A stretch of 57,500 bases of DNA, taken from the NCBI GenBank assembly GCA_902571095.1, contig CACGAV010000003.1:1-57500 (forward strand), in the 5' to 3' direction. Under the pieces are notes generated by a model that made no database searches, had not been told where the DNA came from, and saw nothing but the letters and a program-made list of their open reading frames with translations. The stretch comes from an uncultured Pelagibacteraceae bacterium (lineage in GTDB: Bacteria; Pseudomonadota; Alphaproteobacteria; Pelagibacterales; Pelagibacteraceae). Positions 29,158-53,074 of this stretch are shown piece by piece. The translations under genes were made by a program, and so were the position numbers. Position 1 is the stretch's first letter. Each line of letters opens with the position of its first letter.

Positions 29158-29276
29158 AAGCCTGGCAACGTCCTACTCTCCCGTATCTTAAGACAAAGTA
29201 CCATCGGCGCTGAAGGGCTTGACTTCCGAGTTCGGAATGGGATCGGGTATTACCCCTTCGCAATAATCGCCAGGCA
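29158..29276 (-). rRNA. rrf: 5S ribosomal RNA
   Basis: About 119 nt on the minus strand. Ends GCCTGGCG and GTTGCCAGGC pair as helix I. The conserved CCGAACTCGGAAGTCAAGC loop B/C region, GCGCCGATGGTA and GGGAGAGTAGGA segments are all present. No 23S or 16S gene is nearby: upstream lies a glycosyltransferase and the glycan region. This matches the SAR11 arrangement where HVR2 separates 5S from 16S-23S. The exact ends are set by helix I pairing, with 1-2 nt uncertainty. Confidence 0.97.
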
Positions 29277-32475: not shown

Positions 32476-32486
32476 TTAAAATTATT

Positions 32487-34255: not shown

Positions 34256-34260
34256 ATCAA

Positions 34261-36656: not shown

Positions 36657-36697
36657 TATTAATATTTTCTTTAAATATGAAATTGAAATACTATCTT

Positions 36698-37414
36698 TTA
36701 CTCTCCACCTGCTACTGTGATGGTTTCTCCTGTCATATAAGAATTTCTTTTAGAAATTAAGTTAAGTATATATTCTACAATTTCTAATGGATTAGCTGCT
36801 CTTTTCATTGGTATTAGGTTAATTCTGTTTTTACCTTTAAGATTCTTCTTCATTCTTTTATGTATTTTGGTGTTCGTATATCCAATCCGCAGATTGTTAA
36901 CTAAAATATTTTTTTTTGATAAAATTTTTAAATATTTAGGAACAAACTCTAAAGAATGTTTTGATAAATTGTAATTATATGAAAAATCACCACCCCCAAA
37001 TTTTATTCCTATGCTTGTACAATTAAGTATACGACCATAATTTATCTTGGTCATATAATCCAAATTTTTTCTTATAATAAAAATTGGTATCAACATATTA
37101 ATTTTTAATGAGTTTATAGTTTGATCCATACTTGTATTATTAAATGTTTTATTATCCATGAAACCTATAAGGTTTATAATGGTATCATTATTACTAACTT
37201 CTTTAATTTTTAAAAATCTGTTTAAATTTGAATTTGATAAGTTTGAAAAATCTTTTTTAAAAATTTTAAGATTTTTATTTTTTTTCATTAAAGAGTTTAA
37301 TCTTTTACTATTTTTTGAGTAGTGTGCAGTTACCTTGCATCCTCGATTCAATAATTTAGGTATTAATTCAAACGCTATATCTGAACTTCCGCCCAATATA
37401 AGAATATTTTTCAT
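36698..37414 (-). CDS. Short-chain dehydrogenase/reductase
   Basis: 238 residues with an unusual but recognisable Rossmann start ILGGSSDIAFELIPKLLNRG (about 5-24), a catalytic Ser in NCTSIGIKFGG near 132 and Tyr/Lys in YNYNLSK near 145-151. It ends with YMTGETITVAGGE, a classical SDR ending. It probably reduces a keto sugar or related intermediate of glycan synthesis. It follows the radical SAM gene by 7 bp. Substrate is unknown. Confidence 0.83.
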   Translation of the reverse strand: MKNILILGGSSDIAFELIPKLLNRGCKVTAHYSKNSKRLNSLMKKNKNLKIFKKDFSNLSNSNLNRFLKIKEVSNNDTIINLIGFMDNKTFNNTSMDQTINSLKINMLIPIFIIRKNLDYMTKINYGRILNCTSIGIKFGGGDFSYNYNLSKHSLEFVPKYLKILSKKNILVNNLRIGYTNTKIHKRMKKNLKGKNRINLIPMKRAANPLEIVEYILNLISKRNSYMTGETITVAGGE

Positions 37415-37421
37415 AAAATTT

Positions 37422-38564
37422 TTATGTTACAACGCATCCTTTACAAGGACTAATTTTGGATCTTTCTTTTTTTAAATGCTTCTCTCTATAATCATTATAT
37501 TTTTTTGAATTCCATAATTCTTTTAGATCAAAATTTTTAACATTTCCAATGCTTAATTGTGATTTGTAATCTGTATCGCAAGGATTTACTTTTCCATCCC
37601 ACCAAATAAACATTCTTCGCCACAAATCAGAACATGGTGTGGTGATCTCATTTGGTTTATTATTATAAACATTTTCCCAAGGGTTATAATCTACAAAAGC
37701 AACTTGATTTACGAGTTTGCTCCAAAAACTATTCATTTCTTTAAAATCTTGTTTATCATTTACTTTAACTCCAGAAACTCTCGTAATAATCTTGCTGTTT
37801 GGATATTTCTTTTCTTTTATATCATTAAAGAGCTCAATGTTTTTTAAAACTGTTTTTAAATTTCCATTTACTCTAAGTTCAGAGTAAAGTTTTTCATCAG
37901 CTGCGTCAGCTGAGAAAACAAGAGTTTTTACACCACCAGATAAAATTGCGTGAATTTTTTCTTCATTAAGTAATGATGCATTAGTATTTAATTTTAGGTT
38001 TAGAAATTTTCCTTCGGTGTATCTTAGCATATCATTTATTGATTTTGATACTAATGGTTCACCTCTAGAAGCAAGAGATAAAAATTCAATATTTCCCACT
38101 GCTTTATCGATTATACTTTTAAATAAATCTAAATTCATTGTCCCCATGAACCCAGATTTTTTATTGGTGAATGATTTATCACTTTCAAAACAAAATACAC
38201 ATCTGTAATTACATATTGAACTTGGCTCTATTTGAAGATACGGCGGATATTCATCTAAAATGTTCTTCTCGGGATGAATTTCATATCTGTATCTGTGAAA
38301 TAAATATAATAATAATTTATCATCTGGAATTGTCTTAATTTCTTCAATGACGTAATTATTAAGTTTGAAAGTTGAATTTTTTTTTAAAAACAATTCTTCT
38401 TTAACATCTAAAATGATTTTTTTTTCATAATCCGATAATTTCGTAATAAACGTATTATCATCAAAGATTTTTTTAATTCTTTCTGTCTCAGAATTAAAAT
38501 TTAAATTGTCTAAGTTAATATTTTTAAAACTACCTAATTTTTTATATATTTTTGTTTCTGTCAT
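37422..38564 (-). CDS. Radical SAM protein with SPASM-like domain
   Basis: 380 residues. The radical SAM cluster motif CNYRCVFC is at about residues 118-125, preceded by an LQIEPSSI strand. FLSLASRGEPLVS near 158 and LKLNTNASLL near 186 follow the barrel pattern. The C-terminal part has NPCDTDY near 328 and a final CKGC, plus an earlier CSDLW, giving enough cysteines for an auxiliary [4Fe-4S] cluster as in SPASM proteins. An N-terminal extension of about 100 residues is unassigned. Flanking genes are sugar-modifying, so it may dehydrate, epimerise or otherwise modify a glycan building block. It abuts the methyltransferase (0 bp). Confidence 0.8.
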   Translation of the reverse strand: MTETKIYKKLGSFKNINLDNLNFNSETERIKKIFDDNTFITKLSDYEKKIILDVKEELFLKKNSTFKLNNYVIEEIKTIPDDKLLLYLFHRYRYEIHPEKNILDEYPPYLQIEPSSICNYRCVFCFESDKSFTNKKSGFMGTMNLDLFKSIIDKAVGNIEFLSLASRGEPLVSKSINDMLRYTEGKFLNLKLNTNASLLNEEKIHAILSGGVKTLVFSADAADEKLYSELRVNGNLKTVLKNIELFNDIKEKKYPNSKIITRVSGVKVNDKQDFKEMNSFWSKLVNQVAFVDYNPWENVYNNKPNEITTPCSDLWRRMFIWWDGKVNPCDTDYKSQLSIGNVKNFDLKELWNSKKYNDYREKHLKKERSKISPCKGCVVT

Positions 38565-39500
38565 TTAATACCCGATAGTTTTTTGTCTCAGCTCCATCCA
38601 CTTTTCCTCAGATGATGTTGGACCTGGTCTTGTCATTTCATCAATATTTTCTATTTTCTTCGCTAAAATTATTTGATGGTTATTAAAATGAGGAAAGAAA
38701 TAAAAAATTTTTTTCAGTAAAAATTTGATAATACCTTTAATTGATAAATTCAAATTATTTTTTTTTAATTTATTATTTAAAATACTAAATTCACCTTGCA
38801 TCCTATCAAAATATTCATGTCTTTCTATTTCAAAACCAGTGTGATTTAATAAAAATTTAAGTTCCCCTTTGCTATATTCCTTATTATGAGGCCTGTGATT
38901 ACCTTTAAAAAACATTGAAGATAAAATTGGATGTACATTTGGACTATCACCTTTTGTGATCATTCTGAATATATAAAAAAAATTTGTAATATTGTCTGTT
39001 GTTATAATCAAATATCCACCAGGTTTGAGGGACTTATTAATTTTTTCTAAACAAAATATCGGATCAACCAAATGCTCGATTGTATCTAATAAATAACAAA
39101 TATCGAAATTATTTAAATTCCATGCTTTTGTATTTTTCGCATCAGGAAAATTTGGATCTATCTCTGTATCGATACATTTTACATCATATTTTTTTACTTT
39201 ATCAACAAATTCTTTATCTAAATCCAAACCAACAGCTGTGTAATCATTATAATCATTAAAAACTTCTTTGCTTAATTTAATCATGTTTCCCGGAAATGCT
39301 CCTACATCAATTATTTTAGGTTTTGAGAAACGTGTATTTAATTTTTTTAATAATTCAAATACTTTAAAAAATCTTATAAAACCTATTTCAAAACTATGCT
39401 TATTTTTAATATTTTCTCTTTTATCCTTTTTTCTGACCTCCCAGGTGAAAGGTTTGTAATTCAGAACAAATTTTATATATTCTTTTTTAATTTCTTTCAT
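38565..39500 (-). CDS. Class I SAM-dependent methyltransferase
   Basis: 311 residues. SAM-binding motif I is IIDVGAFPGNMIKLSKEVF near 64-82, the acidic loop GLDLD near 93, FDICYLLDTIEHLVDPIFCLEKI near 130-152 and KPGGYLIITTDNITN near 157-171. The C-terminal third contains a hydrophobic, lysine-rich patch (about 245-275) that may contact the membrane. Probably methylates a sugar or lipid-linked intermediate. Located between a CMP-sugar synthetase (24 bp) and the radical SAM gene. Confidence 0.83.
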   Translation of the reverse strand: MKEIKKEYIKFVLNYKPFTWEVRKKDKRENIKNKHSFEIGFIRFFKVFELLKKLNTRFSKPKIIDVGAFPGNMIKLSKEVFNDYNDYTAVGLDLDKEFVDKVKKYDVKCIDTEIDPNFPDAKNTKAWNLNNFDICYLLDTIEHLVDPIFCLEKINKSLKPGGYLIITTDNITNFFYIFRMITKGDSPNVHPILSSMFFKGNHRPHNKEYSKGELKFLLNHTGFEIERHEYFDRMQGEFSILNNKLKKNNLNLSIKGIIKFLLKKIFYFFPHFNNHQIILAKKIENIDEMTRPGPTSSEEKWMELRQKTIGY

Positions 39501-39524
39501 TATTAACTTCCTGGTAATGAAAAT

Positions 39525-40256
39525 TTAAATATTTTTTTTTATCCAATATTCAACTAAAGGAATTTGCCACTCAAAATCTACGTCGCAACCACCCCAAGAT
39601 CTGATAGGTGCAATTTTTTTTCCCATCCATTTTTGTGGTAACAAACCTTTTTTAAGATTTTCTAAACACCTGGGTCTTACTACTGAAACGGACATGTCTG
39701 CATAATAAACATTGCCTTGGGAGTCTCGGTCGCAATTTAAAGTCTTGGGATTACCAAAATAATTAAAATCTACAAAAGGCACTAGGTTACCTTTCTTGCT
39801 TAGTTTCCTCGCTCTAAGTGGACTCCACATATTATAAATTGACGTTGAAACAGCAGAGTCAAATTTATTATTTTTTTTCAAAAGCTTAATTCCTTTATCA
39901 ATAATTTTTGCATTGATTGTTGGTGCATTTGCAAATAGTAAAACAACAAGTTTAATTTTTTTATTTTCTTTTATTAATTTTTTTTTGATTTGAAAGTAAG
40001 TATATTCAAAAACATGATCACCTAACGCTTTACTATTATTTAATTTTGAGGGTCTATCTATAAACTCAGTATTGTATTTTTTGGATATTTTTTTTATTTT
40101 ATTACAATCAGTAGCTACATATATTTTATTTACAAATTTTGATTTTTTTGCAGCTATCAAAGGATATTCGCACATTGCTTTCCCTAAAACTTTTTTTGTG
40201 TTTTTCCCTGGAAAACCTCTGCTCCCTGCCCTTCCAATCATTATAGCAATAATCAT
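39525..40256 (-). CDS. Acylneuraminate cytidylyltransferase family protein
   Basis: 243 residues. IAIMIGRAGSRGFPGKNTKKVLGKAM at the start is the CTP-binding region of the NeuA/KdsB family (R-x-G-S-x-G-x-x-x-K-N pattern), KIYVATDCNKIKKI near 44 and VVLLFANAPTINAKII near 103 follow. It activates an acidic or other sugar to its CMP form. It pairs with a downstream-oriented NAD-dependent epimerase (4 bp gap). It is a second copy type distinct from the cytidylyltransferase at about 49 kb, implying two different CMP-activated sugars. Confidence 0.82.
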   Translation of the reverse strand: MIIAIMIGRAGSRGFPGKNTKKVLGKAMCEYPLIAAKKSKFVNKIYVATDCNKIKKISKKYNTEFIDRPSKLNNSKALGDHVFEYTYFQIKKKLIKENKKIKLVVLLFANAPTINAKIIDKGIKLLKKNNKFDSAVSTSIYNMWSPLRARKLSKKGNLVPFVDFNYFGNPKTLNCDRDSQGNVYYADMSVSVVRPRCLENLKKGLLPQKWMGKKIAPIRSWGGCDVDFEWQIPLVEYWIKKNI

Positions 40257-40260
40257 AATT

Positions 40261-41133
40261 TCAAATATTCTTAATCATATTTTTTAAATCATCTTCAAAT
40301 TTATATTTTGACTTAAATTTTAAAATTTTACCATAATTAGGTTTAAATGTGTTTGGGTTTTTAATATAATGCCCTGGTATTTCTCTCTTTTTATATAATA
40401 TTTTATTTTTTATATTAAGAATTTTAGATATCATTTTTAACATTTTATTGATTTTAATTATTTTACTGCCTGTAATAACTAGATGTTTATTTATATATTT
40501 TTTATTTAGGGCTAAGGCGCTTAGTTTTGCAGCATCTTTTACATTGATATAGCGTCTTTCAGTTTTTTTATTACCATGATACTCAATTTTTCTTTTTTTG
40601 ATGGTATTTTCTATAATTTTTTTAAGGCCATTACTTTTATCAGCCCTTTCACCATAAAGAGATCCATATCTTAAAATGGTGAATTTGAGATTGAATCTCT
40701 TACTATACTCCTCAATATAATCTTCAGCAGCTTTCTTGCTACTTCTATAAAATCCACCATCAATACTATTTACATAAATTGAACTTGCAAAAATAAATCT
40801 TTTTAGTTTGCATTGTTTAGCAGCCTCAAGAGCAAAAGTTGTTCCTAAAATATTTTGATTAACAGTATCAACAGGACTATTCCAAGCCCTATTTAGATCA
40901 GCTAAAGAGGCGAAATGAAAAACAATATCTTGCTTTTTGCAAGTTTTTTTCAATTTTTTAAAGTTAAGTATACTTCCTTTTATAAATTTTTGTTTTTTGT
41001 TAATCCATCTCGATTTTTTAATATCATATATGGTAACCTCGTATTTTTTTGAGCTTAATTCATCAGCAAGGTGCGATCCTAGAAAACCACTTCCTCCAGT
41101 AATTAAACATTTAATTTTATTTTTTTTTACCAT
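40261..41133 (-). CDS. NAD-dependent epimerase/dehydratase
   Basis: 290 residues, extended SDR. LITGGSGFLGSHLADELSSKKYEVTIYD near 10-37 binds NAD, FHFASLADLNRAWNSP near 72-87 is the usual fHlAa region, SSIYVNS near 116 holds the Ser, and the catalytic YxxxK is YRSSK near 128-132. LRYGSLYGERADKSNGL near 155 fits nucleotide-sugar epimerases. It overlaps the upstream cupin gene by 7 bp. It likely supplies an epimerised or dehydrated nucleotide sugar for the glycan. Confidence 0.87.
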   Translation of the reverse strand: MVKKNKIKCLITGGSGFLGSHLADELSSKKYEVTIYDIKKSRWINKKQKFIKGSILNFKKLKKTCKKQDIVFHFASLADLNRAWNSPVDTVNQNILGTTFALEAAKQCKLKRFIFASSIYVNSIDGGFYRSSKKAAEDYIEEYSKRFNLKFTILRYGSLYGERADKSNGLKKIIENTIKKRKIEYHGNKKTERRYINVKDAAKLSALALNKKYINKHLVITGSKIIKINKMLKMISKILNIKNKILYKKREIPGHYIKNPNTFKPNYGKILKFKSKYKFEDDLKNMIKNI

Positions 41134-41546
41134 TTGAAATTAATTTCATTTATTTTTTTATTATTTATATCTTTTGTGTTGTGAGTAATATTTAAAATAT
41201 TCATTATTTCGCTTTTGTTTTTAGACAAGTTCTTAAATCCATACCAATTTTTTGGTGGAACAGCTAAACCAAAACTTTTATTTTGATTTAGTATAAAATA
41301 CTTAAATTTAGAACTTTTATCATCAAAAAAAACGAATTTAACTTTTCCTTTAATAACAAATAGATTCATAAAGGCCTTTTTATTTTTTTTCCATGCACGT
41401 ATTTCTTTTTTGGCTAAAACTGAAATATAAACTTCACCAAAACCTTTAAATATTTTATCTTTTTTTGTTAGATATTTAAAAATTTTTCCTTTTGACTTCT
41501 TAATTACTTTGTAATTAAATAATTTTATCATTTTAAAATTGTTCAT
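41127..41546 (-). CDS. RmlC-like cupin (dTDP-4-dehydrorhamnose 3,5-epimerase-like)
   Basis: 139 residues, shorter than RmlC (about 180). A single cupin barrel is suggested by KGFGEVYISVLAKKEIRAWKKNK near 34-56, NLFVIKGKVKFVFFDD near 61-76 and GLAVPPKNWYGFKNLS near 93-108. The catalytic His of true RmlC is not obvious in the first strand, so chemistry may be 3- or 4-ketoisomerase-like, or the protein may only bind sugars. It precedes the epimerase gene in a coupled pair and follows the GT4 gene by 11 bp. Confidence 0.6.
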   Translation of the reverse strand: MNNFKMIKLFNYKVIKKSKGKIFKYLTKKDKIFKGFGEVYISVLAKKEIRAWKKNKKAFMNLFVIKGKVKFVFFDDKSSKFKYFILNQNKSFGLAVPPKNWYGFKNLSKNKSEIMNILNITHNTKDINNKKINEINFKW

Positions 41547-41557
41547 ATATTTTTAAT

Positions 41558-42766
41558 TTAATTTTGATTTAATTTTTGCTCTAAATGACTTTTATATTCG
41601 TCTGCCATTTTTTCAGCACTAAAATTTTGTTCAATATATTTTTTTGCTTTGATTGACCTGTTTATCCAATTAGCTCGGTTTTTATGATAATCTAAAATCG
41701 ATTCTTTGATTTGATCAATCGAACCTGGCTCTATGATTTCACAGTATTCTTTAGTTAAATATTCTTCTATTGCCCCAACTTTAGTTGTAATGACAGGAAT
41801 ATTGGACATTATTGACTCTACAATTGCTAAGCCAAAACCCTCAAAAGTTCTAGTAAGGGAAACCACTAAATCAAAATCTTTTACAATTTCTTTAATATCT
41901 TTATCTACATATCCTTTAAAAATAACATACTCACTTAGATTAAGTCTTTTAGTAAGTTCTTTCAAGTTAGCCACAAAATCTTTTGTTCCACCCCCAATAA
42001 ATATAAAATTAAAATGACTCAATTCTTTTTCAGGAATTTTCTTCAAAGCCCAAATTAAATCTTCATGACCTTTATATTTTTCAAGACGTGAGATAAGACC
42101 AACATTAATTTTTTTTCTTTTGATCGGATTATTTATTGTTTCTTTTATTTCTGTATCAACGCCATTATAAATGACAACATCATGAAGCAGCTGACTATCC
42201 AACAAATTTGACTTATAAAATACACTTTCTCTTGTCGCTTTAGAAACTGAAATTAAACTTGTCAATTTTTTAGAAAGTAAGAAATTTATAAATCTAACAA
42301 ATAAAGTCATAAAAGGTGGTGGAAATGTACAGGCGTGATGTATGACCATTGAATTAATTTTTATTTTGTCTCTATTTGTTGCTAAAATTGCAGCCATTTC
42401 CTCTCTTATAGTTCCATAACCTCCACATTGGGCTAATAAAATATCATATTTTTTTTGTGCAAAAATAAATTTAAATCTTAAAAATGAGATTAGGAATAAT
42501 AAAGGTCTAAAAAAAAATACTATTTTTTTTAAGAGGAAACTATTAATATGTGGTTGAATAATATTATTATACTCAATTATTTTAATTTCTCTTTTTAAAA
42601 GTTTTTTTAATCTTTGTATTCCTTGGTTATTTTTATTTGTATATATCGTAATCGAAATATTTTTAAAAGAATTTGAATTTAATAAATATGCAATATAAGT
42701 ATCGACTCCACCCCAAGAAATTTGATCCCAAACAATGGCAAGATTTTTAATTTTTTTTAGTTGCAT
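41558..42766 (-). CDS. Family 4 glycosyltransferase
   Basis: 402 residues, GT-B fold. The N-terminus IVWDQISWGGVDTYIAYLLN carries the glycine-rich acceptor loop. IYNGVDTEI near 201, VGLISRLEKYKGHEDLIWAL near 223-242, and the EFx7E-type EGFGLAIVESIMSNIPVITT near 312-331 are characteristic of GT4 retaining transferases. It would add a hexose or similar sugar to a lipid-linked glycan. Overlaps the next upstream gene by one base. Confidence 0.9.
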   Translation of the reverse strand: MQLKKIKNLAIVWDQISWGGVDTYIAYLLNSNSFKNISITIYTNKNNQGIQRLKKLLKREIKIIEYNNIIQPHINSFLLKKIVFFFRPLLFLISFLRFKFIFAQKKYDILLAQCGGYGTIREEMAAILATNRDKIKINSMVIHHACTFPPPFMTLFVRFINFLLSKKLTSLISVSKATRESVFYKSNLLDSQLLHDVVIYNGVDTEIKETINNPIKRKKINVGLISRLEKYKGHEDLIWALKKIPEKELSHFNFIFIGGGTKDFVANLKELTKRLNLSEYVIFKGYVDKDIKEIVKDFDLVVSLTRTFEGFGLAIVESIMSNIPVITTKVGAIEEYLTKEYCEIIEPGSIDQIKESILDYHKNRANWINRSIKAKKYIEQNFSAEKMADEYKSHLEQKLNQN

Positions 42767-44484
42767 TAAAATATTATTTTTTGTAGATCGTTAGTTGGAT
42801 TAGAACTAAATTTTGCAAATTGAAAACAAAATTTACTTCTTAATTTCTGTAAACTTTTATCTAGCCACCAATTATCAATATTATTCTGTATTTTGTTTAA
42901 AAAATTTGCAGCTTTTTTAGGATCATAAAAAATTATTCCTTTTTTTTCAAAACTTTTATAAAATTGTTTTGAAATTTTTCTAAATCTCTCAAATTTTTTA
43001 TTAAGTATCAATATTGACGGCTTGTTCATATACATACTTAATAAGAAAGCTGTCGAATCATTATCATGAACAATAATTTTATAATTATTAATTATTTTTT
43101 GTAAATTCTTTTCACCATGATCAAATTTTACATAATTTGGAAATAATTTTTCATTAAATTTAAAATTCCAAAACTTCTCTGTATATTTTTGATATCGAAT
43201 TCTTATATTTGAATTAGTATTTAAATTTTCAATGAATTTTACAATTTGATAAAGTTTAAATAACCTATCATAATTTGTTTTTGGTAGAGAGCTTATTTTT
43301 GATGAAAATTTACTATGGAAATGACTACATATTAAAATTTCATTTTCGTTATTTGTTTTTCTTTTTTCAAAAAAATTAAACTGAAAAGCATTAAATTTCA
43401 CAACATTTTTAAAATACTTATCGTTCCAACCCCAACTTAAAAACTTATCAGCTATTTCTTTTTGATAATCTTCTTCTAAAAGATATTCAGCAGTACCAAA
43501 ACTACCACCGTGTTGAATTATAAAATACTTTGATTTATTCCTAACCATATTTGCACACCAAATTTTAAATATATCATTTAATTTGTATTCGTAAGCTGTA
43601 ACAATTTTTTTACAATTATTAGGCCAGTAAGATTTTTTAATTGAATTATTAATTGAATAAAAATCTTCTAAATAACTTTTGGGAATAAATAAATATATTA
43701 TTTGATCAAAAAAATTCTCGAAGTTTTTAGCTTTATTATCTTTTTCTTTTTTTAAATATTTTTTTCTTTTTTTTAAATTTTTTTCAAATTCCATATATGT
43801 TGGGTCGATCCATATAAAAGGCCATTGCTTGTAAGATAAGTTAAGTTTTATGTATTCATATAGACTAATTCCAATATTGTTAAAAACTATTTTGTTTGAT
43901 GCGAAAATTGATAAGATTTTTAAAAGTTTAGAATGCAAAGTATCAAAAATACTAAAATTATTTTTCTGATATTTATCTAATTTAAGAGTTTTTTCTTTTA
44001 CTGTTTTTTTATTTGTATAGTCTAATATAAGGCTATAAATCATTAAATTAAAATTTTCGTCAACATACCTTAAATCTCTAAAATTTTTTGGAATAAGTTC
44101 TGCTTTATTGAATTTATAAGAATGAAAAATAAAACTTTTATTTTTTACAGAATTTATCATTTCCCATCTATCATACAAAATATAGGTAATTGTTGTGAGC
44201 CAGGGTAGAATAATAATTTTCCAATACTTTTCATTTTCTTTCATGGAATGAAACTTATTAAGATTTAATGAAATCTCTTTAGTTTTCTTTTTAAGAAATC
44301 TTTTTAAAAAAATATAATCTTTTTTAACTTTTTTTTGACTATCCCAATGATATTTGCAAATCAATTTAGATTTAAAATTCTTCAGAGAGTTCATGGATAA
44401 GTTTTCTGGATCACTCAAGCAGTGATCGCTAAGAAAATAAGAGTTTTTTTTATTTACTCTTTCAAAGTATATATTCTTAAACAT
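42766..44484 (-). CDS. LIC12162-family transferase-like protein
   Basis: 572 residues. The opening (SYFLSDHCLSD, then YWKIIILPWLTTITYILYDRWEMI near 88-111) and later segments (KYFIIQHGGSFGTAEYL near 318-334, KFLSWGWNDKYF near 347, KIIVHDNDSTAFLLSMYMNKPSIL near 475-498) match my memory of the LIC12162 (TIGR04331) putative transferase family, found in glycan clusters of diverse bacteria. The reaction is not established. The C-terminal half looks GT-B-like. It sits with a sugar O-methyltransferase candidate (28 bp) and the GT4 gene. Confidence 0.65.
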   Translation of the reverse strand: MFKNIYFERVNKKNSYFLSDHCLSDPENLSMNSLKNFKSKLICKYHWDSQKKVKKDYIFLKRFLKKKTKEISLNLNKFHSMKENEKYWKIIILPWLTTITYILYDRWEMINSVKNKSFIFHSYKFNKAELIPKNFRDLRYVDENFNLMIYSLILDYTNKKTVKEKTLKLDKYQKNNFSIFDTLHSKLLKILSIFASNKIVFNNIGISLYEYIKLNLSYKQWPFIWIDPTYMEFEKNLKKRKKYLKKEKDNKAKNFENFFDQIIYLFIPKSYLEDFYSINNSIKKSYWPNNCKKIVTAYEYKLNDIFKIWCANMVRNKSKYFIIQHGGSFGTAEYLLEEDYQKEIADKFLSWGWNDKYFKNVVKFNAFQFNFFEKRKTNNENEILICSHFHSKFSSKISSLPKTNYDRLFKLYQIVKFIENLNTNSNIRIRYQKYTEKFWNFKFNEKLFPNYVKFDHGEKNLQKIINNYKIIVHDNDSTAFLLSMYMNKPSILILNKKFERFRKISKQFYKSFEKKGIIFYDPKKAANFLNKIQNNIDNWWLDKSLQKLRSKFCFQFAKFSSNPTNDLQKIIF

Positions 44485-44512
44485 AAAATGTTTTAAATAA
44501 AAAGGTAATTAT

Positions 44513-45532
44513 TTATTTATCGAATTCTCCAAAAAAATAAATATTTTTATCTTCCCTCAAGCCCTCAATTACATAATTATTTTTTTTTGGTTTTATATCT
44601 TTATTAAAGTATTTTATATACTCATAAGGATTGGTGATTTTATAATTTTTTTGATCTTGATCGTTTATTGAAAAACTTTTTGCCTTGTTTTTTTTTAAAA
44701 AATTTAAATATTTTTTTATCTCATCTATTTTTAAATGTGAAAATGAATCCCCATTGTGAAAATGGTCAATTTCAACATCAATTTTGTCTATTGACCAAGA
44801 CGGCATTACAATAATTTCAAGATCGTTATTTTTTGAAAACGATACCTTTTTACTATTAACTAGTTGAGTATATGAAATTACAGACTTACCATAAAACTTC
44901 TCTAGGTATTTGGTAGCAACATAAATTGTCGGAAAAGTATCGATTAATAAAAATTTTTTAATGTTTATAAAATTTTGTTGAATTAAATGAATATTAGCAC
45001 CAAACCCGCCTCCGATTTCACAATAAGTTTTATTTTTTTTTAAGTCACAGTGAGTATTTATAAAATCTAATTTATTGCATAATTCTAAATAATAGGGTGA
45101 GTAATATTTACCGTTTTTTTTAAATTTATTATCACATCCAAAATCTGTAGAATTTTCAATTTTGTAACTTTCCAATAAATCTTTTACTTTTTGATTCTGT
45201 GAAAAAATAAAATTTAAATAACGAATCCAGTTATCAAATATTCTTTTATTTAAAATTCTTTGTTCCTTAAAAATCTTACCAAAAGTAAAAAAATTTATTA
45301 AATGAATTAAAAAACTTTTTATTTTACCAGATGTAGCTTCAACATCTAAAATTACTGAGTCAGAATAACCTAGACCACTTCCATTAGAAGATTTTCTAAA
45401 ATTTTTAATTCCATACTTTTTTATTTTTAAATAACTAATTTTTCCTATTTTGGAGTAGTGATTTTGTTTTTCCAATTTAGAACTATATTTAGAATAGTCT
45501 TTTTTTAAAATTTCTAATAGATCATTATTCAT
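44513..45532 (-). CDS. Putative sugar O-methyltransferase
   Basis: 339 residues. The SAM-binding GxGxG region is YCEIGGGFGANIHLIQQNF near 170-188, followed by LLIDTFPTIYVATKYLE near 195-211 and DHFHNGDSFSHL near 256-267. This pattern resembles the TIGR04371 sugar methyltransferase family. The N-terminal 150 residues are helical and lysine-rich without a clear match. It likely methylates a glycan sugar. It starts 10 bp after the ABC exporter gene and so belongs to the same transcript. Confidence 0.7.
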   Translation of the reverse strand: MNNDLLEILKKDYSKYSSKLEKQNHYSKIGKISYLKIKKYGIKNFRKSSNGSGLGYSDSVILDVEATSGKIKSFLIHLINFFTFGKIFKEQRILNKRIFDNWIRYLNFIFSQNQKVKDLLESYKIENSTDFGCDNKFKKNGKYYSPYYLELCNKLDFINTHCDLKKNKTYCEIGGGFGANIHLIQQNFINIKKFLLIDTFPTIYVATKYLEKFYGKSVISYTQLVNSKKVSFSKNNDLEIIVMPSWSIDKIDVEIDHFHNGDSFSHLKIDEIKKYLNFLKKNKAKSFSINDQDQKNYKITNPYEYIKYFNKDIKPKKNNYVIEGLREDKNIYFFGEFDK

Positions 45533-45542
45533 AAAGAAGTTA

Positions 45543-47294
45543 CTAAATATTTTTAAAAGAGTTAATAGACTTTTTTGATGCTATTAATTTTCCATTCTTT
45601 ATTAAGAAAATTTTGTTGAAATTTTTAAGGGTTTCAAGTCTATGGGATATAGAAATTAGTGTTTTTCCTTTTAATTTAAAAATATTTTTTAATATTTGTT
45701 TTTCAGTAAAAGAGTCTAAAGAACTTGTTGCTTCATCTAAAATTAAAATTTCTGGATTATGGACTAAAGCTCTGGCAATTCCAAGTCGTTGTATTTCACC
45801 TCCAGATAAATTAATACCTCGCTCACTTAAATTAGTGTTCAATCCTTTTGGAAGTTTTTTGTACCAATTGCCTAATCCAACTTGTTGTAAGATATTTATA
45901 AAGTATTTATCCTGATAATTTTTATATTTGTCATTTAAGCAAATATTATTTTTTAAGCTATCTTCTAAAATATAAATTTTTTGAGGTATATATCCAATAA
46001 TGCTTCTCCATGAGTTTACAAAGTTTCTCGTGGAATTATTATCAAGTGTTATATCTCCATGTCGTAAATATAAAATATTAATTAACAATTCTACAATTGT
46101 GCTCTTGCCTGATCCAGTTGGGCCAATAATTCCAACCCTTTCACCTTTCTTTATTGCGATTTTAATGTTTTTTAATTCAAAAGACGAATCTGACTTATAT
46201 TTAAATTTTTTAATATTGATATTTATTAATTTCTTTAAAAATATTTTTTTGGAAATTTCGTTTTTTTTCTTTGACAAAGCTTGATACTCTTTAATTTTTT
46301 TGAAAACTACATTTAGAGAGGGTTTGTTTAGTCTCATGGACTGTAAACTGGCAATTATTTTATTTGCAGAAGGAAATAGACGAATAAATGCTAGAAGATA
46401 AATTGGTAGAGCAACACTTAATGAATCAAAGTTTAACCCTGTAAACTTAACGAAAGATAAGTAAATAAATAGTAACACCACCAAAATAAATTCAAGTAAA
46501 TATCTCGGTAAAATATTATACAAGGCGTTTTTTCCCATCACTTCAGCAATTATTGAATTAAACTGATTAAATTTACCAAAAAAGTAGTTTTCACTAAAAG
46601 ACATTTTAATATCCTTAATTCCTCCAAATGCAGAATTTAAAAATTGTATTTTTTTATTTTCAAATTTTTGTTTTGTTAATCCAATTTTTAAGATTTTAGA
46701 TCTTAGTATTATGTAATAAAAAAACAAAAAAAATAAAATTAAAAGTGAGACGATTAGGGTAGGTAAAAAATTATATACAAAAAGGAAGATTGTAATTATC
46801 GAAAAAGTAATGACTTCGGTTATTAACCTAAGATTATTAATTAGAAACTCAGTTAATTTATCAATTTCTAAAATTGAATTTCTAATAAATTCTGAACTAC
46901 TTAAATCATTTAATGAAAAATAGTTTTTATTTAAATAATTTTGATAAAAATGATTGGACAATTTTTTATTGAAATTAAAACAATAAACTGCTTGATACCA
47001 GTTTGTATAAATTAGTAGTAAGATTTTTATCAGGTATGATCCTACAAAAAATAATATTAAAATCTCAAACAAATTTTCGTTTAATGTTAAATTTAAAGAC
47101 GAAAAAATTTTGTCAAATATATAATTATCTTGAATTAAAGTATTGTTTAAAACTATACTTGAAATAGGAATAAGAATTCCAAGACTTAATATTTCAACAA
47201 AACCACCAAAAGTTACTATACTTATTAAAAAAGGTAGCTTCTTTTTATCCTCATATTTTAACAAGGATGCCAATTTTTTATTTAAAAATAACAT
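45543..47294 (-). CDS. ABC exporter, fused permease-ATPase (flippase candidate)
   Basis: 583 residues. Six hydrophobic helices occupy about 20-320. The nucleotide-binding domain has Walker A GPTGSGKST near 392, Q-loop GYIPQKIYILE near 432, signature NLSGGEIQRLGIARAL near 492-507, Walker B ILILDEATSSLD near 514 and the switch His in ISISHRLETL near 545. The order fits MsbA/PglK-type exporters. As no Wzx is present in this window, it may flip the lipid-linked oligosaccharide across the inner membrane. It is 46 bp downstream of the aminotransferase. Confidence 0.87.
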   Translation of the reverse strand: MLFLNKKLASLLKYEDKKKLPFLISIVTFGGFVEILSLGILIPISSIVLNNTLIQDNYIFDKIFSSLNLTLNENLFEILILFFVGSYLIKILLLIYTNWYQAVYCFNFNKKLSNHFYQNYLNKNYFSLNDLSSSEFIRNSILEIDKLTEFLINNLRLITEVITFSIITIFLFVYNFLPTLIVSLLILFFLFFYYIILRSKILKIGLTKQKFENKKIQFLNSAFGGIKDIKMSFSENYFFGKFNQFNSIIAEVMGKNALYNILPRYLLEFILVVLLFIYLSFVKFTGLNFDSLSVALPIYLLAFIRLFPSANKIIASLQSMRLNKPSLNVVFKKIKEYQALSKKKNEISKKIFLKKLININIKKFKYKSDSSFELKNIKIAIKKGERVGIIGPTGSGKSTIVELLINILYLRHGDITLDNNSTRNFVNSWRSIIGYIPQKIYILEDSLKNNICLNDKYKNYQDKYFINILQQVGLGNWYKKLPKGLNTNLSERGINLSGGEIQRLGIARALVHNPEILILDEATSSLDSFTEKQILKNIFKLKGKTLISISHRLETLKNFNKIFLIKNGKLIASKKSINSFKNI

Positions 47295-47340
47295 TTAATC
47301 AAAAGCTTTATAATTTCTGGTTGAGGTAATAAAATGATTA

Positions 47341-48525
47341 TTAGATTTTTTTCAATTCTATCAAGGCTTGTTTGATAGATCTAATTAAGTATTGAACGTC
47401 TTTTTCTTTCATCCATATGTGGAAAGGGAAAGAAATCATATTGTCATAAAATTTATCTGTGTTAGGACATTTGTTTTTTTTAATACCCATTTTTTTGAAT
47501 AGTGAATATCTATACAATGGATAATACTGAGTGGCACACTGGATTCCATATTTGTTATAAAGCAATTTAATAAGGTTATTTCGATTCACTCTATTTTTAG
47601 GTTGATAAAATGCACTTAGTAGATGATAAACATGTCTTTTTTTCATAAAAGATGAATTAAAGTGTAATTCATTAAAATCAGAAAGACTTTGAATAATTTT
47701 TTTGGCCCTTTTGATTCTTGTTAGATTTAATTGATCAAGTTTTTTCAACATAACAATACCAGCTGCACATTGAATTTCGCTTATAGTAAATTTATAAGGC
47801 CATTTATTTTTAATATCTAAATCTAAATTACCCATTGCTGGAAGCCAATAATATTTCCTGTTTTTTTTAAAATTAGTATGTCCGTTGTGTCTTAGCCCTT
47901 TTACTTTTTTTGAGAGAAAATTATCTCGAACATAAACCATACCACCCTCACCTAATGTTGTAATATTCTTTTGAGCATGAAATGAAAAGCAAGAGAAATC
48001 ACCGATTGTTCCAACTTTTTTTCCATTTACTTCGGCACCTAACGCTTGGGCGCAATCTTCTATAATTTTTATTTTTTTATTTTTTAAGTATGAAATGATT
48101 GGATTAAAATTTACAGCAAAACCGTATAGATGCACAAAAACTACTGCCTTAGTTCTTTTTGTAATTTTCTTTTTAATATCTGCTAAGTCAACAACTCTAG
48201 TATTAAAATCTATATCTGACCAAACTATTTTAGCTCCATTTCTTGCAAAAGGGATAGCCGATGCACAGTAAGTATGGGCGGGTATGATTACCTCATCTCC
48301 TTTTTTAAGATCTAATAATAATGCTATTATTTCTAGAGCAGCTGCAGCTGAACTTACTGCAAATGTATTCTTTTTTCCTATATATTTAGAAAATTGATTT
48401 TCAAATTTTTTCAAGTAAAAACCTTGCGTAAGTGGGTCAGCAAACTTTATTACATTAGTAAGATATTTAATATCTTTTGAGGTATAATTGTGTGATCTTC
48501 CAGACCAAATAATTGAGTTTCTCAT
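47341..48525 (-). CDS. DegT/DnrJ/EryC1-family sugar aminotransferase
   Basis: 394 residues, PLP fold type I. FAVSSAAAALEIIALLL near 56-72 is the cofactor phosphate region, IIEDCAQALGAEVNGKKVG near 151-169 contains the PLP-ring Asp/Gln, and the Schiff-base lysine lies in CFSFHAQKNITTLGEGGM near 175-192. The presence of this lysine argues against an RfbH-type dehydrase, which has His. It would transfer an amino group to a keto sugar. It lies 2 bp from the CMP-sugar synthetase, suggesting they share a pathway. Confidence 0.88.
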   Translation of the reverse strand: MRNSIIWSGRSHNYTSKDIKYLTNVIKFADPLTQGFYLKKFENQFSKYIGKKNTFAVSSAAAALEIIALLLDLKKGDEVIIPAHTYCASAIPFARNGAKIVWSDIDFNTRVVDLADIKKKITKRTKAVVFVHLYGFAVNFNPIISYLKNKKIKIIEDCAQALGAEVNGKKVGTIGDFSCFSFHAQKNITTLGEGGMVYVRDNFLSKKVKGLRHNGHTNFKKNRKYYWLPAMGNLDLDIKNKWPYKFTISEIQCAAGIVMLKKLDQLNLTRIKRAKKIIQSLSDFNELHFNSSFMKKRHVYHLLSAFYQPKNRVNRNNLIKLLYNKYGIQCATQYYPLYRYSLFKKMGIKKNKCPNTDKFYDNMISFPFHIWMKEKDVQYLIRSIKQALIELKKI

Positions 48526-48527
48526 CT

Positions 48528-49208
48528 TTAGTTTATTAATTTTTTTATAATATTAATATCTTCATAATCATCTACCTCAAATGACTTAGATTTGGGCATT
48601 ATATAAGTTTGATGATCATTTAAGTCGTATATTTTCTTTTTTTTTATCAAATCTTTATGTGCAATATATATAGCACCATTAATGAAGTATGATTTTAAAT
48701 CAAAATCTTGCCTTCTAAAAAATTTATTTGACCTTTTTAGAATTGGTTTCCATTTATTTTTTCCAAAATTCTTTATAACCTCGTAAGGATGTTCCAGGGA
48801 CTCGGAAATGCTGAACAAGCTTAATGGTTTGTATTTTTTTACAATCTTTATTGAATTATTAATATCAAGAGAAGATCGTAAAGGTGATGTGGGTTGAAGG
48901 ATAATTATATAATCAAATTTTATTCTATTTAACTTAGTCCAATTATAAAAATGATACATCGTTTCTGCGAGAGAAGTTTTGTCAAGTGAGTATTTTTTTG
49001 GTCTTATATAGTCTGTAATTATATTAAATTTTTTGGATAATTTTTTTATTTTTTTATTATCACTTAATAAATAACTTTTTTTAATGAAAGATTTTTTTGC
49101 CGCCTCAAAAGTAAATTGTATAAGTGGTTTTCCTTTAAATGGATAAATATTTTTATTTTTAATGCCTTTTGAAGATGATCTAGCAGGTATTGCAATTATA
49201 AACTTCAC
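48528..49208 (-). CDS. Acylneuraminate cytidylyltransferase family (NeuA-like)
   Basis: 226 residues with IIAIPARSSSKGIKNKNIYPFKGKPL at the start (CTP-binding RxxSKGxKxKN), SYLLSDNKKIKKL near 45 and YIIILQPTSPLRSSLDI near 100-116, the conserved LQPTSPLR. It activates a nonulosonic acid or related sugar with CTP. It is flanked by the aminotransferase and by the PhyH dioxygenase (0-1 bp), and two genes from a short NeuB homologue, so these four probably make one CMP-activated acidic sugar. Confidence 0.88.
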   Translation of the reverse strand: MKFIIAIPARSSSKGIKNKNIYPFKGKPLIQFTFEAAKKSFIKKSYLLSDNKKIKKLSKKFNIITDYIRPKKYSLDKTSLAETMYHFYNWTKLNRIKFDYIIILQPTSPLRSSLDINNSIKIVKKYKPLSLFSISESLEHPYEVIKNFGKNKWKPILKRSNKFFRRQDFDLKSYFINGAIYIAHKDLIKKKKIYDLNDHQTYIMPKSKSFEVDDYEDINIIKKLIN

Positions 49209-49961
49209 CTATCTATTATTGCTTAAAAAATTAATATTTTTTTTTACGTTAAGCTTATAATCTTTTAGCAATTTTGAATTTGGTTTTGAATTATTAGCTT
49301 TGTAACTAATCACCAAACCTTGTCTATTTTTATTTGATTTATTTTCGTGGCTGCCGTGAATTACTTCACAATGATGAACAAGCATATCGCCTGGATTTAG
49401 TTTGGGATAAATTTTTTCAAATTTAAGCTTTCTAATAACATGAAGGGGTATTTTATAAGAGCTTCCGGGTGCATATGAAGTAACATGTTTTTTTAAACCA
49501 CTTTTATGAGATCCTTTAAGATAGAATACTCCTCCGTTACTCTTGCTCGACTTATCGCAAGCTATCCATACATTTAGGGCTTTTTTATCTTCAAATTTCC
49601 AATAATAGTTATCTTGATGATGAGGTGATTTTAGACCAGTTTTTTTAGGTTTTGAAAAAAATTCTATATTTCTAACTTTAGGATTTGCTTTTAAAAGATT
49701 TTTAATAATATTTAGTATTTTTTTATCTTTTGAAACCTGAATTATTCTCCCTTTTTTAAGATACTTATTTATATCATGAACTGTATTGATTTTATTATCT
49801 TGTGTAAGATGTAAATGAGGATTTTTGATCTTAATTGAAATTTTTTTAACCTTTACAATCTCCTTTTGAATATTTCTTATACTGGCTTTTGACAAAATAT
49901 TTCTAACAACAACAAAACCGTCATTATAAAAGTTGTCTTCGATTTTACTAAAATTTTTCAT
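49209..49961 (-). CDS. PhyH-family Fe(II)/2-oxoglutarate dioxygenase in sugar pathway
   Basis: About 250 residues from the ATG at 49961. A longer in-frame start at 50063 would overlap the NeuB gene by about 100 bp and is rejected. DNFYNDGFVVVRNILSK is the PhyH opening. The iron triad is HQD in SPHHQDNYYW near residue 140 and the distal His of VHHCEVIHGSHENKS near 205. Arg follows in NRQGLVISYK. It could hydroxylate the sugar made by the neighbouring NeuB-like enzyme or its precursor. Dioxygenases are uncommon in nonulosonate pathways. Confidence 0.78.
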   Translation of the reverse strand: MKNFSKIEDNFYNDGFVVVRNILSKASIRNIQKEIVKVKKISIKIKNPHLHLTQDNKINTVHDINKYLKKGRIIQVSKDKKILNIIKNLLKANPKVRNIEFFSKPKKTGLKSPHHQDNYYWKFEDKKALNVWIACDKSSKSNGGVFYLKGSHKSGLKKHVTSYAPGSSYKIPLHVIRKLKFEKIYPKLNPGDMLVHHCEVIHGSHENKSNKNRQGLVISYKANNSKPNSKLLKDYKLNVKKNINFLSNNR

Positions 49962-49965
49962 AAAT

Positions 49966-50817
49966 CTACCAGTATTTAAATTTAGATATAAGTTTCTTTT
50001 CATCCATTGTAATTTTTTTTCTCCCGTTTCCAAGTATTTTAGGCATTTTTTTAATTGTATCACTCAAATATCTCATACCCTCAGATGAAAGAGAAGCAGA
50101 TTGGTCTGTTCCCCACATTGATCTATCTAGTGTGATGTGTCTTTCTATATAATCTGCGCCAAGAAACCACGCTCCGATTGATGGCGAAACACTTGGTTCA
50201 TGACCGCTATATCCAATTTTGCATTTAAAAATTTGTTTTAAATTTTTAATTACATTCAAATTCAAATCTTCTTCCTTTGAAGGGTAACTTGAAACACAAT
50301 GCATTAGAACATAATCACAATTGTTTTTTTTAAATATTTTCACTGCTTTTTTAATATCATTCATATTTGACATTCCTGTAGAAATAAATGTTAATTTTTT
50401 CTCTTTTGAAATTTCATTTATAAGTTTAAGATTTGTTAGCATTGCAGATGCAACTTTGTTGTATTTCATCTTAAATTTTTTCAGGAATTTTAGACTATTT
50501 AGATCCCATGCAGAACAGAACCAATCAATTTTTAACTTCTTACAATATTTTGAGATTTCATTAAATTCCTTATTACCAAATTCAATTTTTTTCTTATAAT
50601 TTAAATACGTAATTCTCCCCCAAGGAGTATCCCTTAAAATTTGTTTTTGATCATCTGGGATACATATATTTAAATCTCTTTTTTGGAATTTTACTGCATC
50701 AAAGTTGCACTCTTTAGCGAGATCAATTAATTTTTTTGCGAGTTTTATTGATCCATTATGGTTGATTCCAATTTCTGCGATTAAATATGGTTTTTTTCTC
50801 TGTTTAATATCTTTCAT
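49966..50817 (-). CDS. Short NeuB-like synthase lacking the SAF domain
   Basis: 283 residues matching the TIM barrel of the NeuB family: LIAEIGINHNGSIKLAKKLIDLA near 12-34, DAVKFQKRD near 40, FISTGMSNMNDIKKA near 138-152, LMHCVSSYPS near 165, KIGYSGHEPSVSPSIGA near 200-216 and IERHITLDRSMWGTDQSASL near 226-245. It stops soon after the barrel, missing the C-terminal SAF (antifreeze-like) domain of about 60 residues that covers the active site in sialic acid synthases. It likely condenses phosphoenolpyruvate with a sugar. The start has GGAG 9 nt upstream. Confidence 0.85.
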   Translation of the reverse strand: MKDIKQRKKPYLIAEIGINHNGSIKLAKKLIDLAKECNFDAVKFQKRDLNICIPDDQKQILRDTPWGRITYLNYKKKIEFGNKEFNEISKYCKKLKIDWFCSAWDLNSLKFLKKFKMKYNKVASAMLTNLKLINEISKEKKLTFISTGMSNMNDIKKAVKIFKKNNCDYVLMHCVSSYPSKEEDLNLNVIKNLKQIFKCKIGYSGHEPSVSPSIGAWFLGADYIERHITLDRSMWGTDQSASLSSEGMRYLSDTIKKMPKILGNGRKKITMDEKKLISKFKYW

Positions 50818-50877: not shown

Positions 50878-51375
50878 CTACGCTGGGTAAAATAAAAATT
50901 CTTTTTTTCTTACTTTAGTTTTTAAATTACCCATTAAAATATTCATCTTATCTTTTTGAATATTTATAATCTTAAAAATCTTACCAACAAATGGTCCTGA
51001 CGAGAATTTGTAATTTGAGAAAATATTAATTTCAAACATACCTTCTGAAATTAGACCTTTTTTATTTTCACAATTTCTACATTTTTTAATAAATTCAATT
51101 ATCTCGTCCTGAAAACCTATATAGCCATCTAACAAATATTTTAAACCTTTTATGTACTTTAGTTCATTTATGAAGGAATATTTGTTTAAATTTTTATGGT
51201 AAAGGAAGAGATAATCGCCCAAAATATCAATTTCTTTATCTACAAGCTTATTTTTATAATATTTTTGTATTGCAATTTTTGGACGATAAATTTCAAAATC
51301 TTTTCCAAATCGTTTTTCAAGATCATATTTTAGCAAATTGAAATATTTTCTATCAAATTTTATCACAGCCCACAT
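50878..51375 (-). CDS. NusG-like transcription antiterminator paralogue
   Basis: 165 residues. The opening MWAVIKFDRKYFNLLKYDLEK is the NGN-domain start (Trp followed by short beta-strand), with IYRPKIAIQKYYKNK near 30-44, GDYLFLYH near 54 and YIKGLKYLLDGYIGFQDEII near 74-93. The C-terminal KOW segment SGPFVGKIFKIINIQKDKMNIL is near 127-148. Specialised NusG paralogues (RfaH, LoaP, UpxY types) bind RNA polymerase and prevent premature termination of long polysaccharide operons. Its place near the front of a 21-kb glycan operon supports that role. It is 2 bp after the MarR-type gene. Confidence 0.83.
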   Translation of the reverse strand: MWAVIKFDRKYFNLLKYDLEKRFGKDFEIYRPKIAIQKYYKNKLVDKEIDILGDYLFLYHKNLNKYSFINELKYIKGLKYLLDGYIGFQDEIIEFIKKCRNCENKKGLISEGMFEINIFSNYKFSSGPFVGKIFKIINIQKDKMNILMGNLKTKVRKKEFLFYPA

Positions 51376-51377
51376 TT

Positions 51378-51683
51378 TTATTTGTCTCCTTTTAGCTCTT
51401 TTTTAAGTTCATCATACTCTTTCATTTTTCTTTTCATAAAATTAATGGTAAGCTTGGTCTTCTCGGATATGCCTTTGGGTGTCAAAACATAAATATAATT
51501 GATTTTTTTAGGATTTTTTTTAAAATTATTTATCTTTACCAACCCTTTATTTTTAAGTGCATTTAAACAATAATTTAGCTTTCCTAAACTAAAACCGAGC
51601 TCTTCTGCTAGCTCCCTTTGGGAAGAGTCGGGTTTGTTTTTAATCTTTCTTAACAAATTTAGATAATCTTGGTTATTTTTCAT
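51378..51683 (-). CDS. MarR-family EPS-associated transcriptional regulator
   Basis: 101 residues: a winged helix with SQRELAEELGFSLGKLNYCL near 20-39 (recognition helix) and the wing NNFKKNPKKINYIYVLTPKG near 52-71, then a coiled C-terminal helix for dimerisation. It matches the pattern of the EPS-associated MarR type (TIGR04176) typically found beside polysaccharide genes. A dimer of this kind would bind palindromes such as the two at the operon promoter. Located between the frameshifted first gene (1 bp) and the NusG-like gene. Confidence 0.83.
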   Translation of the reverse strand: MKNNQDYLNLLRKIKNKPDSSQRELAEELGFSLGKLNYCLNALKNKGLVKINNFKKNPKKINYIYVLTPKGISEKTKLTINFMKRKMKEYDELKKELKGDK

Positions 51684-51684
51684 A

Positions 51685-52566
51685 TTAATTTAAAAACTGG
51701 CTAATTTTATTCCTCATTATATTTGCTGTTTCAAGAGTCGGTAACATTAAATAATTTTTATTTTCTCCTAATTGGTTAAAATATTCTTCATGCGAAATTG
51801 ACAAAATTTTCAAAACTCTTTTTTCAAAAAGCTCAAAAGAGGGTTTTTTTAAAATACAAATACTCTCATCATTAAATTGGGAGTCTAGTCCAGGAAATGC
51901 AACATCTGGGTGTCCAGTAAAATTACATGATAGTATTTTTTTTTCAAAGGAAATTGCTTCTCTAAGTATAGTTGAGATAAAACCTATTGTAATCCTACTT
52001 TGCATTATGTTTGTGTAAGAAGGATATTCTTTTGATCTATTTGATGATTGAAAAATATTAAAATTGTAATCTTTAAGATAATGTTTATAAAAATAGATTT
52101 CATTAAGAGCGTTTGATTTTCCTTTTTCACCCTCACCACTAAAAACCAAACTTAAGTTATGTTTTTTACAGAGCCTATGTGTGAAATTTGCAACTAATCC
52201 AGCACTTTCATCCATATTTTTAACTTGTGAAAAATCACCATTAAGATTGCTGTGAGGTTCAGATATTAAACAAATATCAAATTTTTCAGGATTAATTTTA
52301 ATTTTATTAAATTTTAAATATTCATAACTCAAGGCTGACCTTACTGATCCTATAACTTCAAGTGTGTTTACCTTAATTTTATTTTTTATATAAAATTTTT
52401 TATCATATTCGCTGAAACAAAAAAGTGTTGGGACAAAGAAATTTTTAAGCATACTTTTGGACATAAATGTAAACTCATTTGATGTACCGCTTTGTATCGC
52501 AATAAATTTAATTTTTTTTGTGTAATATTTTCGATATAATATGAAAATCTGCTGAATGAGAAACAT
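51685..52566 (-). CDS. Surface carbohydrate biosynthesis protein, C-terminal fragment
   Basis: 293 residues in the +1 frame relative to the gene just upstream, which it overlaps by 59 bp. The conserved part starts at KIKFIAIQSGTSNEF near residue 17, with FCFSEYDKKFY near 48, ICLISEPHSN near 98, LSLVFSGEGEKG near 138 and IGFISTILREAISFEKKIL near 194-212, resembling GT-B-like surface carbohydrate (TIGR04396-type) proteins. The first 15 residues look like out-of-frame translation. Removing one A from an eight-A run (52512-52519) joins it in frame to the upstream fragment. Confidence 0.6.
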   Translation of the reverse strand: MFLIQQIFILYRKYYTKKIKFIAIQSGTSNEFTFMSKSMLKNFFVPTLFCFSEYDKKFYIKNKIKVNTLEVIGSVRSALSYEYLKFNKIKINPEKFDICLISEPHSNLNGDFSQVKNMDESAGLVANFTHRLCKKHNLSLVFSGEGEKGKSNALNEIYFYKHYLKDYNFNIFQSSNRSKEYPSYTNIMQSRITIGFISTILREAISFEKKILSCNFTGHPDVAFPGLDSQFNDESICILKKPSFELFEKRVLKILSISHEEYFNQLGENKNYLMLPTLETANIMRNKISQFLN

Positions 52567-53014
52567 GTGTTAATACAACTTTAGGAGAGATTTCATCTAT
52601 TAAAGCAATTAAATAATTTTGTTTTAATGAACGCTTTAAAAAATTTTTTAAAATATAAAATATTATTTTTTTAGATATATATATTTTGTTTATTCTGTTT
52701 GCTCTTGTAGAAATTATTGTATAGTTATCTTTTTGTAAAATTTTTTCGAGATCGTTTGTGCTTTGACAGTCAAAAATTACAACATTTTTTTTATCAATTT
52801 TATTGAAATAAAATTTTGACCTAATTAATAATAAAGTTAAAGCTTTGATCTTTCTTAAAATTCCTGAATTCACTAAATTAATGAAAAAATTCAGGTATGC
52901 CTTTTTAAGCGGCCTAAAGCCAATTTGTTTATAATATTCTTCCATAAAACTTTGGCAAATTACTTTTTGGGCTCCGTCTGATGAGATTAAAATACTTTTC
53001 TTATCGTGAATCAT
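52508..53014 (-). CDS. Surface carbohydrate biosynthesis protein, N-terminal fragment
   Basis: 168 residues from the ATG at 53014 (MIHDKKSILISSDGAQKVI). A TTG at 53059 upstream lies inside promoter elements and is rejected. VVIFDCQSTNDLEKILQ near 93 and PKVVLTHVSHSADFHII near 145-161 fit the N-terminal half of the same family as the next gene, where the HVSHSADF part is normally followed by the QSGT region. It ends at a TAA just after the A8 run. First gene of the operon, directly below the palindromic promoter; a break here would leave the protein in two pieces. Confidence 0.6.
   Translation of the reverse strand: MIHDKKSILISSDGAQKVICQSFMEEYYKQIGFRPLKKAYLNFFINLVNSGILRKIKALTLLLIRSKFYFNKIDKKNVVIFDCQSTNDLEKILQKDNYTIISTRANRINKIYISKKIIFYILKNFLKRSLKQNYLIALIDEISPKVVLTHVSHSADFHIISKILHKKN
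52512..52519 (-). other. Homopolymer A8 run at frameshift junction
   Basis: On the minus strand eight A bases separate CAC from TTAA. Read with eight A the frame hits TAA; read with seven A it continues as HKKIKFIAIQSG and joins the C-terminal fragment. Options are a real pseudogene, slippage-based on/off switching, slippage by RNA polymerase, or a sequencing/assembly error. Confidence 0.7.
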
Positions 53015-53029
53015 AAATATTTTATAAAC

Positions 53030-53044
53030 GTTCAATATTTGAAC
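53030..53044. promoter_or_regulatory. Operator palindrome, copy 1 (start-site side)
   Basis: GTTCAATATTTGAAC: 6-bp arms GTTCAA/TTGAAC around 3 nt. It begins one base after the -10 hexamer of the minus-strand promoter and covers the expected start point, 16 bp upstream of the first ATG. Confidence 0.75.
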
Positions 53045-53045
53045 A

Positions 53046-53074
53046 TATATACCGTTCAATATTTGAACTGTAAA
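53046..53074 (-). promoter_or_regulatory. Promoter of the 21-kb glycan operon
   Basis: TTTACA (53069-53074) and TATATA (53046-53051) on the minus strand, spaced exactly 17 bp. The spacer is almost entirely the second palindrome. Expected start near 53039, giving a leader of about 25 nt. Confidence 0.7.
53054..53068. promoter_or_regulatory. Operator palindrome, copy 2 (in the -35/-10 spacer)
   Basis: Identical 15-mer GTTCAATATTTGAAC, 24 bp from copy 1, immediately after the -35 hexamer. A protein bound here would block RNA polymerase. Placement of both copies indicates repression. Confidence 0.75.

Follow-up and report, generated by a model that had tools for sequence, protein, structure and literature searches.

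Paired palindromes in the promoter of a Pelagibacteraceae glycan operon as probable operators of a co-encoded TIGR04176 regulator

Introduction

The window analysed here, a stretch of 57,500 nt from an uncultured Pelagibacteraceae bacterium, carries two identical palindromes in the promoter region of a long array of glycan genes, which raises the question of what protein would recognise them and with what effect on transcription. A first-pass annotation had proposed that they are twin operators of a MarR-type regulator encoded in the same transcript, that is, an autoregulated switch of surface glycan expression. MarR-type autorepressors are small winged-helix proteins with palindromic operators lying over their own promoter.

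Results

The 15-mer GTTCAATATTTGAAC is present in two identical copies, at 53030-53044 and 53054-53068, in a register of 24 bp, and each copy is a near-palindrome in which the 6-bp arms GTTCAA and TTGAAC flank TAT. The minus strand of this region reads TTTACA-[GTTCAAATATTGAAC]-GG-TATATA-T-[GTTCAAATATTGAAC], followed 15 bp further on by the ATG at 53014. That is, between a putative −35 hexamer (TTTACA, 53074-53069) and a putative −10 hexamer (TATATA, 53051-53046) the normal 17-bp spacer is filled exactly by one palindrome (operator 1, 53068-53054) plus GG, and the other (operator 2, 53044-53030) begins 1 bp after TATATA and covers the expected transcript start. The geometry given in the first-pass annotation, from the 24-bp repeat to the filled spacer and the copy just past the −10, was therefore correct to the base. 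A generic sigma-70 scan did not list the promoter at 53046-53074, the −10 hexamer TATATA being weak; it is called here because the −35/−10 layout is conserved in relatives. In an alignment of eight sequences including the window, neither TTTAC nor the TA in the −10 varied. Upstream of the promoter the genes have the same orientation as the operon, and no terminator-like site was found in the 120-bp gap between them and the promoter, so that read-through into the operon is possible.

When the whole assembly was searched (901,930 bp, about 80% complete), the pattern GTTCAA-N3-TTGAAC matched only at these two sites, and a backwards control pattern gave 0 matches. Among the one-mismatch sites of this genome there was no convincing second promoter of a regulon; two of them fell within coding frames and one within a tRNA gene. 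A LexA box was also considered and rejected, since in Alphaproteobacteria LexA recognises a direct repeat, GTTC-N7-GTTC, whereas the repeat found here is inverted. Matches to GTTCAAGATTTGAAC or its complement (family f2) were likewise set aside: at 11 of 12 loci they fell within a single conserved coding gene, and the remaining one was coding as well, which points to chance.

Downstream of the palindromes, 23 ORFs run collinearly on the minus strand from 53014 to 31684, with intergenic gaps of −98 to +60 bp, so the 21-kb operon proposed earlier holds as a predicted transcript in the form of a collinear array. The first two ORFs (52508-53014 and 51685-52566) are the 5′ and 3′ parts of a single surface-carbohydrate biosynthesis gene, weakly LA_1612-like, broken in the overlap of the two ORFs (52508-52566), where the frame shifts by 1 nt at an A8 tract. 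In another uncultured Pelagibacteraceae genome (AG-439-H11, locus L140) the homolog of the split gene is intact in one frame, at the same place between twin sites and regulator; a sequencing error, slippage and a real mutation would look alike here. The regulator gene (51378-51683) had been placed two reading frames downstream. Two frames do precede it, but as they form one split gene it ranks second in the operon. It is followed by a gene for a 165-aa protein (50878-51375) and by the rest of the array (31684-50817), which is annotated as encoding NeuB, a PhyH-like protein, a cytidylyltransferase, a DegT aminotransferase, an ABC transporter, glycosyltransferases, epimerases and radical SAM proteins. 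The displaced layout, with the carbohydrate gene between operators and regulator, was seen in the window and in one close relative, L140.

The regulator scored 131.5 bits against the NCBIfam family TIGR04176 (MarR_EPS), above the curated cut-off of 88, and it lies, as the family name would have it, in a polysaccharide locus, with NeuB, NeuC, aminotransferase and glycosyltransferase genes around it. Its best Pfam match was HTH_24 (39.6 bits, cut-off 21.9), whereas MarR_2 gave 25.1 bits, below the 27-bit cut-off; a regulator of the EPS family is thus encoded in the operon as first claimed, but the "MarR" part of the description is weak and amounts to a family label. The SAR11 form is 101 aa long, shows no obvious sensor domain, and contains a nearly invariant segment, SLGKxNYC. 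Our literature searches found no mention of TIGR04176, a single mention of an "EPS-associated transcriptional regulator" in each of two papers, and no description of a GTTCA-N5-TGAAC operator.

If the palindromes are operators of this regulator, they should accompany its gene elsewhere. Loci from named SAR11 genomes were collected through their similarity to the regulator, and a site was scored when a palindrome with no more than one mismatch in its 12 arm positions lay at most 130 bp from the regulator start codon. Among the 79 loci with readable upstream DNA, which are related to one another, 78 carried such a palindrome, compared with 0.075 expected from Markov resampling; control blocks farther upstream matched in 6 of 1346 cases. 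Two or more sites (at least 10 of 12 arm positions) were present at 65 loci, mostly 22-24 bp apart and in the same promoter layout. Within 61 pairs of sites from relatives, the GTTCA-N5-TGAAC core was invariant (61/61) and TTTAC directly preceded the upstream copy, its T, T, T, A and C being found in 61, 59, 50, 59 and 54 pairs, respectively. Furthermore, 61 genomes were compared from the same family: 24 of the 30 with the regulator had exact sites, as did 6 of the 31 without it (Fisher p 2.5e-6). The first-pass annotation had named absence of the palindromes beside the regulator in relatives as the result that would speak against it; the opposite was found. A SAR11-type regulator with twin operators (L172) was found on a contig labelled Candidatus Neomarinimicrobiota (MED589), which is probably mis-binned SAR11.

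Some points count against reading the sites as operators of the regulator. The 79 loci were chosen by similarity to the regulator and are kin, not independent trials; the regulator of the window does not lie directly behind the operators, and a second related regulator may be encoded in this genome, the assembly being incomplete. The kinship is answered by a deeper comparison in distant Proteobacteria, where the site was found as well, in three groups for each of which at most 0.01 occurrences were expected. Outside SAR11, TIGR04176 members scoring over the cut-off had an exact GTTCA-N5-TGAAC within 200 bp upstream at 16 of 22 loci (0.010 expected); the exact site was absent from the 200 bp examined at the other 6, which also speaks against the reading, though one of these had nearly no upstream sequence. 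A group of alphaproteobacterial relatives of about 220 aa that score below the cut-off (L069-L091) had been meant as a negative control, but carried the same operators in 20 of 23 cases, mostly as pairs, and so became evidence. In a Rhodobacter-type branch (L109-L118 and L068), all 11 loci had GTTCA-N4-TGAAC upstream. Here the TIGR04176 winged helix is fused to a bifunctional ATP sulfurylase/APS kinase (domains checked in L110), which makes a self-regulating metabolic enzyme possible. The C-terminal domain of the 220-aa proteins appeared Rossmann-like in weak Foldseek matches only and is possibly nucleotide-binding. Because the site stays with a single protein family in settings this diverse, and its spacing changes with a branch of that family, the GTTCA/TGAAC motif is best read, from these comparisons, as the family's own binding site. 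The link between palindrome and regulator gene thus extends beyond SAR11.

Additional sites were found in several relatives. In one genome (G054), five sites, four exact and one with one mismatch, were distributed across some 36 kb of glycan genes, and others (G036, G026, G025 and G016 among them) had extra intergenic sites where glycan operons begin. Several such single sites lay directly behind TTTACT or TTGACT. Extra copies at the heads of other glycan operons would be expected of a small regulon.

The 165-aa product of the gene directly after the regulator is predicted to adopt a NusG/RfaH fold. Its AlphaFold model (pLDDT 91) had NusG and RfaH as best Foldseek matches (E 7e-8 to 1e-5), pointing to the NGN and KOW domains of the NusG fold. 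Sequence support was weak: 7 of 23 members of the partner family matched PF02357 (NusG), at best with 3.8e-4, the window protein by itself had no NusG match in Pfam, and searching the PDB with a sequence profile of the partner returned nothing, structural matches coming only from the comparison of folds. Against the RfaH family (TIGR01955, cut-off 144.5), partners in six distant loci scored 97-124 bits and the window protein had no NCBIfam match at E 0.001. Homologs of the partner adjoin the regulator as the next gene in most SAR11 loci. The gene directly after the regulator was clearly NusG/RfaH-like in many distant loci, including RfaH-like in the eight loci of the 220-aa group that were examined, and a sugar-metabolism gene in others. 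Since the next gene in SAR11 usually encodes a protein of this predicted fold, the SAR11 cassette probably controls both initiation and elongation. This neighbour and the extra sites in relatives had been overlooked in the earlier reading of the locus, which was right about the palindromes and, to the extent that sequence can show, about how they work.

Discussion

The two palindromes very probably serve as a pair of operators for the TIGR04176 regulator, which is encoded in the operon that they head and would repress its own transcription through them. A conserved palindromic site is consistent with binding by a dimeric winged helix, and both copies overlap the promoter of the regulator's own predicted transcript. 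With one dimer bound to each site, and the two separated by about two helical turns on the same DNA face, both the −35/−10 spacer and the transcript start would be occupied and RNA polymerase blocked. Repression would then extend alike to the regulator, the NusG-like partner and the glycan genes of the array, and all would be induced together when some inducing signal releases the regulator. The NusG-fold protein may then act as an antiterminator, riding with the polymerase and keeping it going through the long AT-rich operon, and in relatives the single sites in promoter spacers would place other glycan operons under the same repressor. The autoregulated glycan switch first proposed is supported by what the sequence shows of the sites, their geometry, conservation and linkage to the regulator, from which binding and repression are inferred.

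Alternatively, the sites could belong to another transcription factor, the regulator being linked to them only as a member of that factor's regulon. Some relatives do have sites before glycan operons with no adjacent regulator, and in five genomes (G003, G012, G016, G046 and G048), most of them incomplete assemblies, sites but no regulator were found. Several nearly complete SAR11 genomes that lack the regulator also lack the site, however, and the site tracks the regulator family across distant Proteobacteria, up to the ATP sulfurylase/APS kinase fusion with a spacing of its own, which renders such a factor unlikely. It is very unlikely, too, that the regulator binds these sites as an activator. 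There are winged-helix regulators that can both activate and repress, and the −10 is weak here, but neither site lies upstream of the −35, the usual position for activators; one takes up a spacer of the normal 17 bp and the other lies over the start region. RNA hairpins or recombination sites for promoter inversion, as paired inverted repeats in a variable glycan island might suggest, are highly improbable, given that the copy between −35 and −10 would be outside the transcript, that spacing, promoter orientation and base-specific core are fixed across relatives, and that no recombinase was seen among the annotated genes next to the promoter.

With the operators assigned to the TIGR04176 regulator, the locus resembles MarR-type autorepressor systems in that its palindromes overlap the putative −35, −10 and start and the regulator is encoded within the transcript it is predicted to control. 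It differs in the length of the regulator (101 aa only), its best match to HTH_24, the fixed spacing of the paired sites and the NusG paralog next to it. NusG paralogs encoded in the long operons on which they act are known from UpxY, TaA and several RfaH clusters (PMC7593976), and the window has in common with them that a long operon for a cell-envelope glycan encodes a protein of the NusG fold; unlike those, the SAR11 partner is so diverged that the window protein has no Pfam NusG match by itself. The main text of that paper contains neither "MarR" nor "repressor". We lean slightly towards a broader proposal, that a Proteobacteria-wide cassette, in which a small autorepressor of the winged-helix type acts on paired GTTCA-N5-TGAAC operators and a NusG/RfaH-type elongation factor is encoded alongside, gates initiation and elongation of long surface-glycan operons; in SAR11 it would serve as the private regulon of the variable glycan island.

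What is added here is a candidate operator that appears to be family-wide, together with a NusG-type partner and a likely small regulon. The uncharacterised TIGR04176 family thereby gains a specific candidate DNA site, and in many genomes its regulon can now be read off the sequence. SAR11 cells have relatively few transcriptional regulators (PMC13198564). A dedicated surface-glycan switch, if true, suggests that the cell surface is among the few things that some SAR11 still regulate, and a regulated surface would bear on phage adsorption and grazing.

The window also holds a 5S rRNA gene, at 29160-29274, beyond the end of the glycan array. The hypervariable region of SAR11 lies between rRNA genes, and the position of this gene near the glycan genes resembles, and is consistent with, that arrangement.
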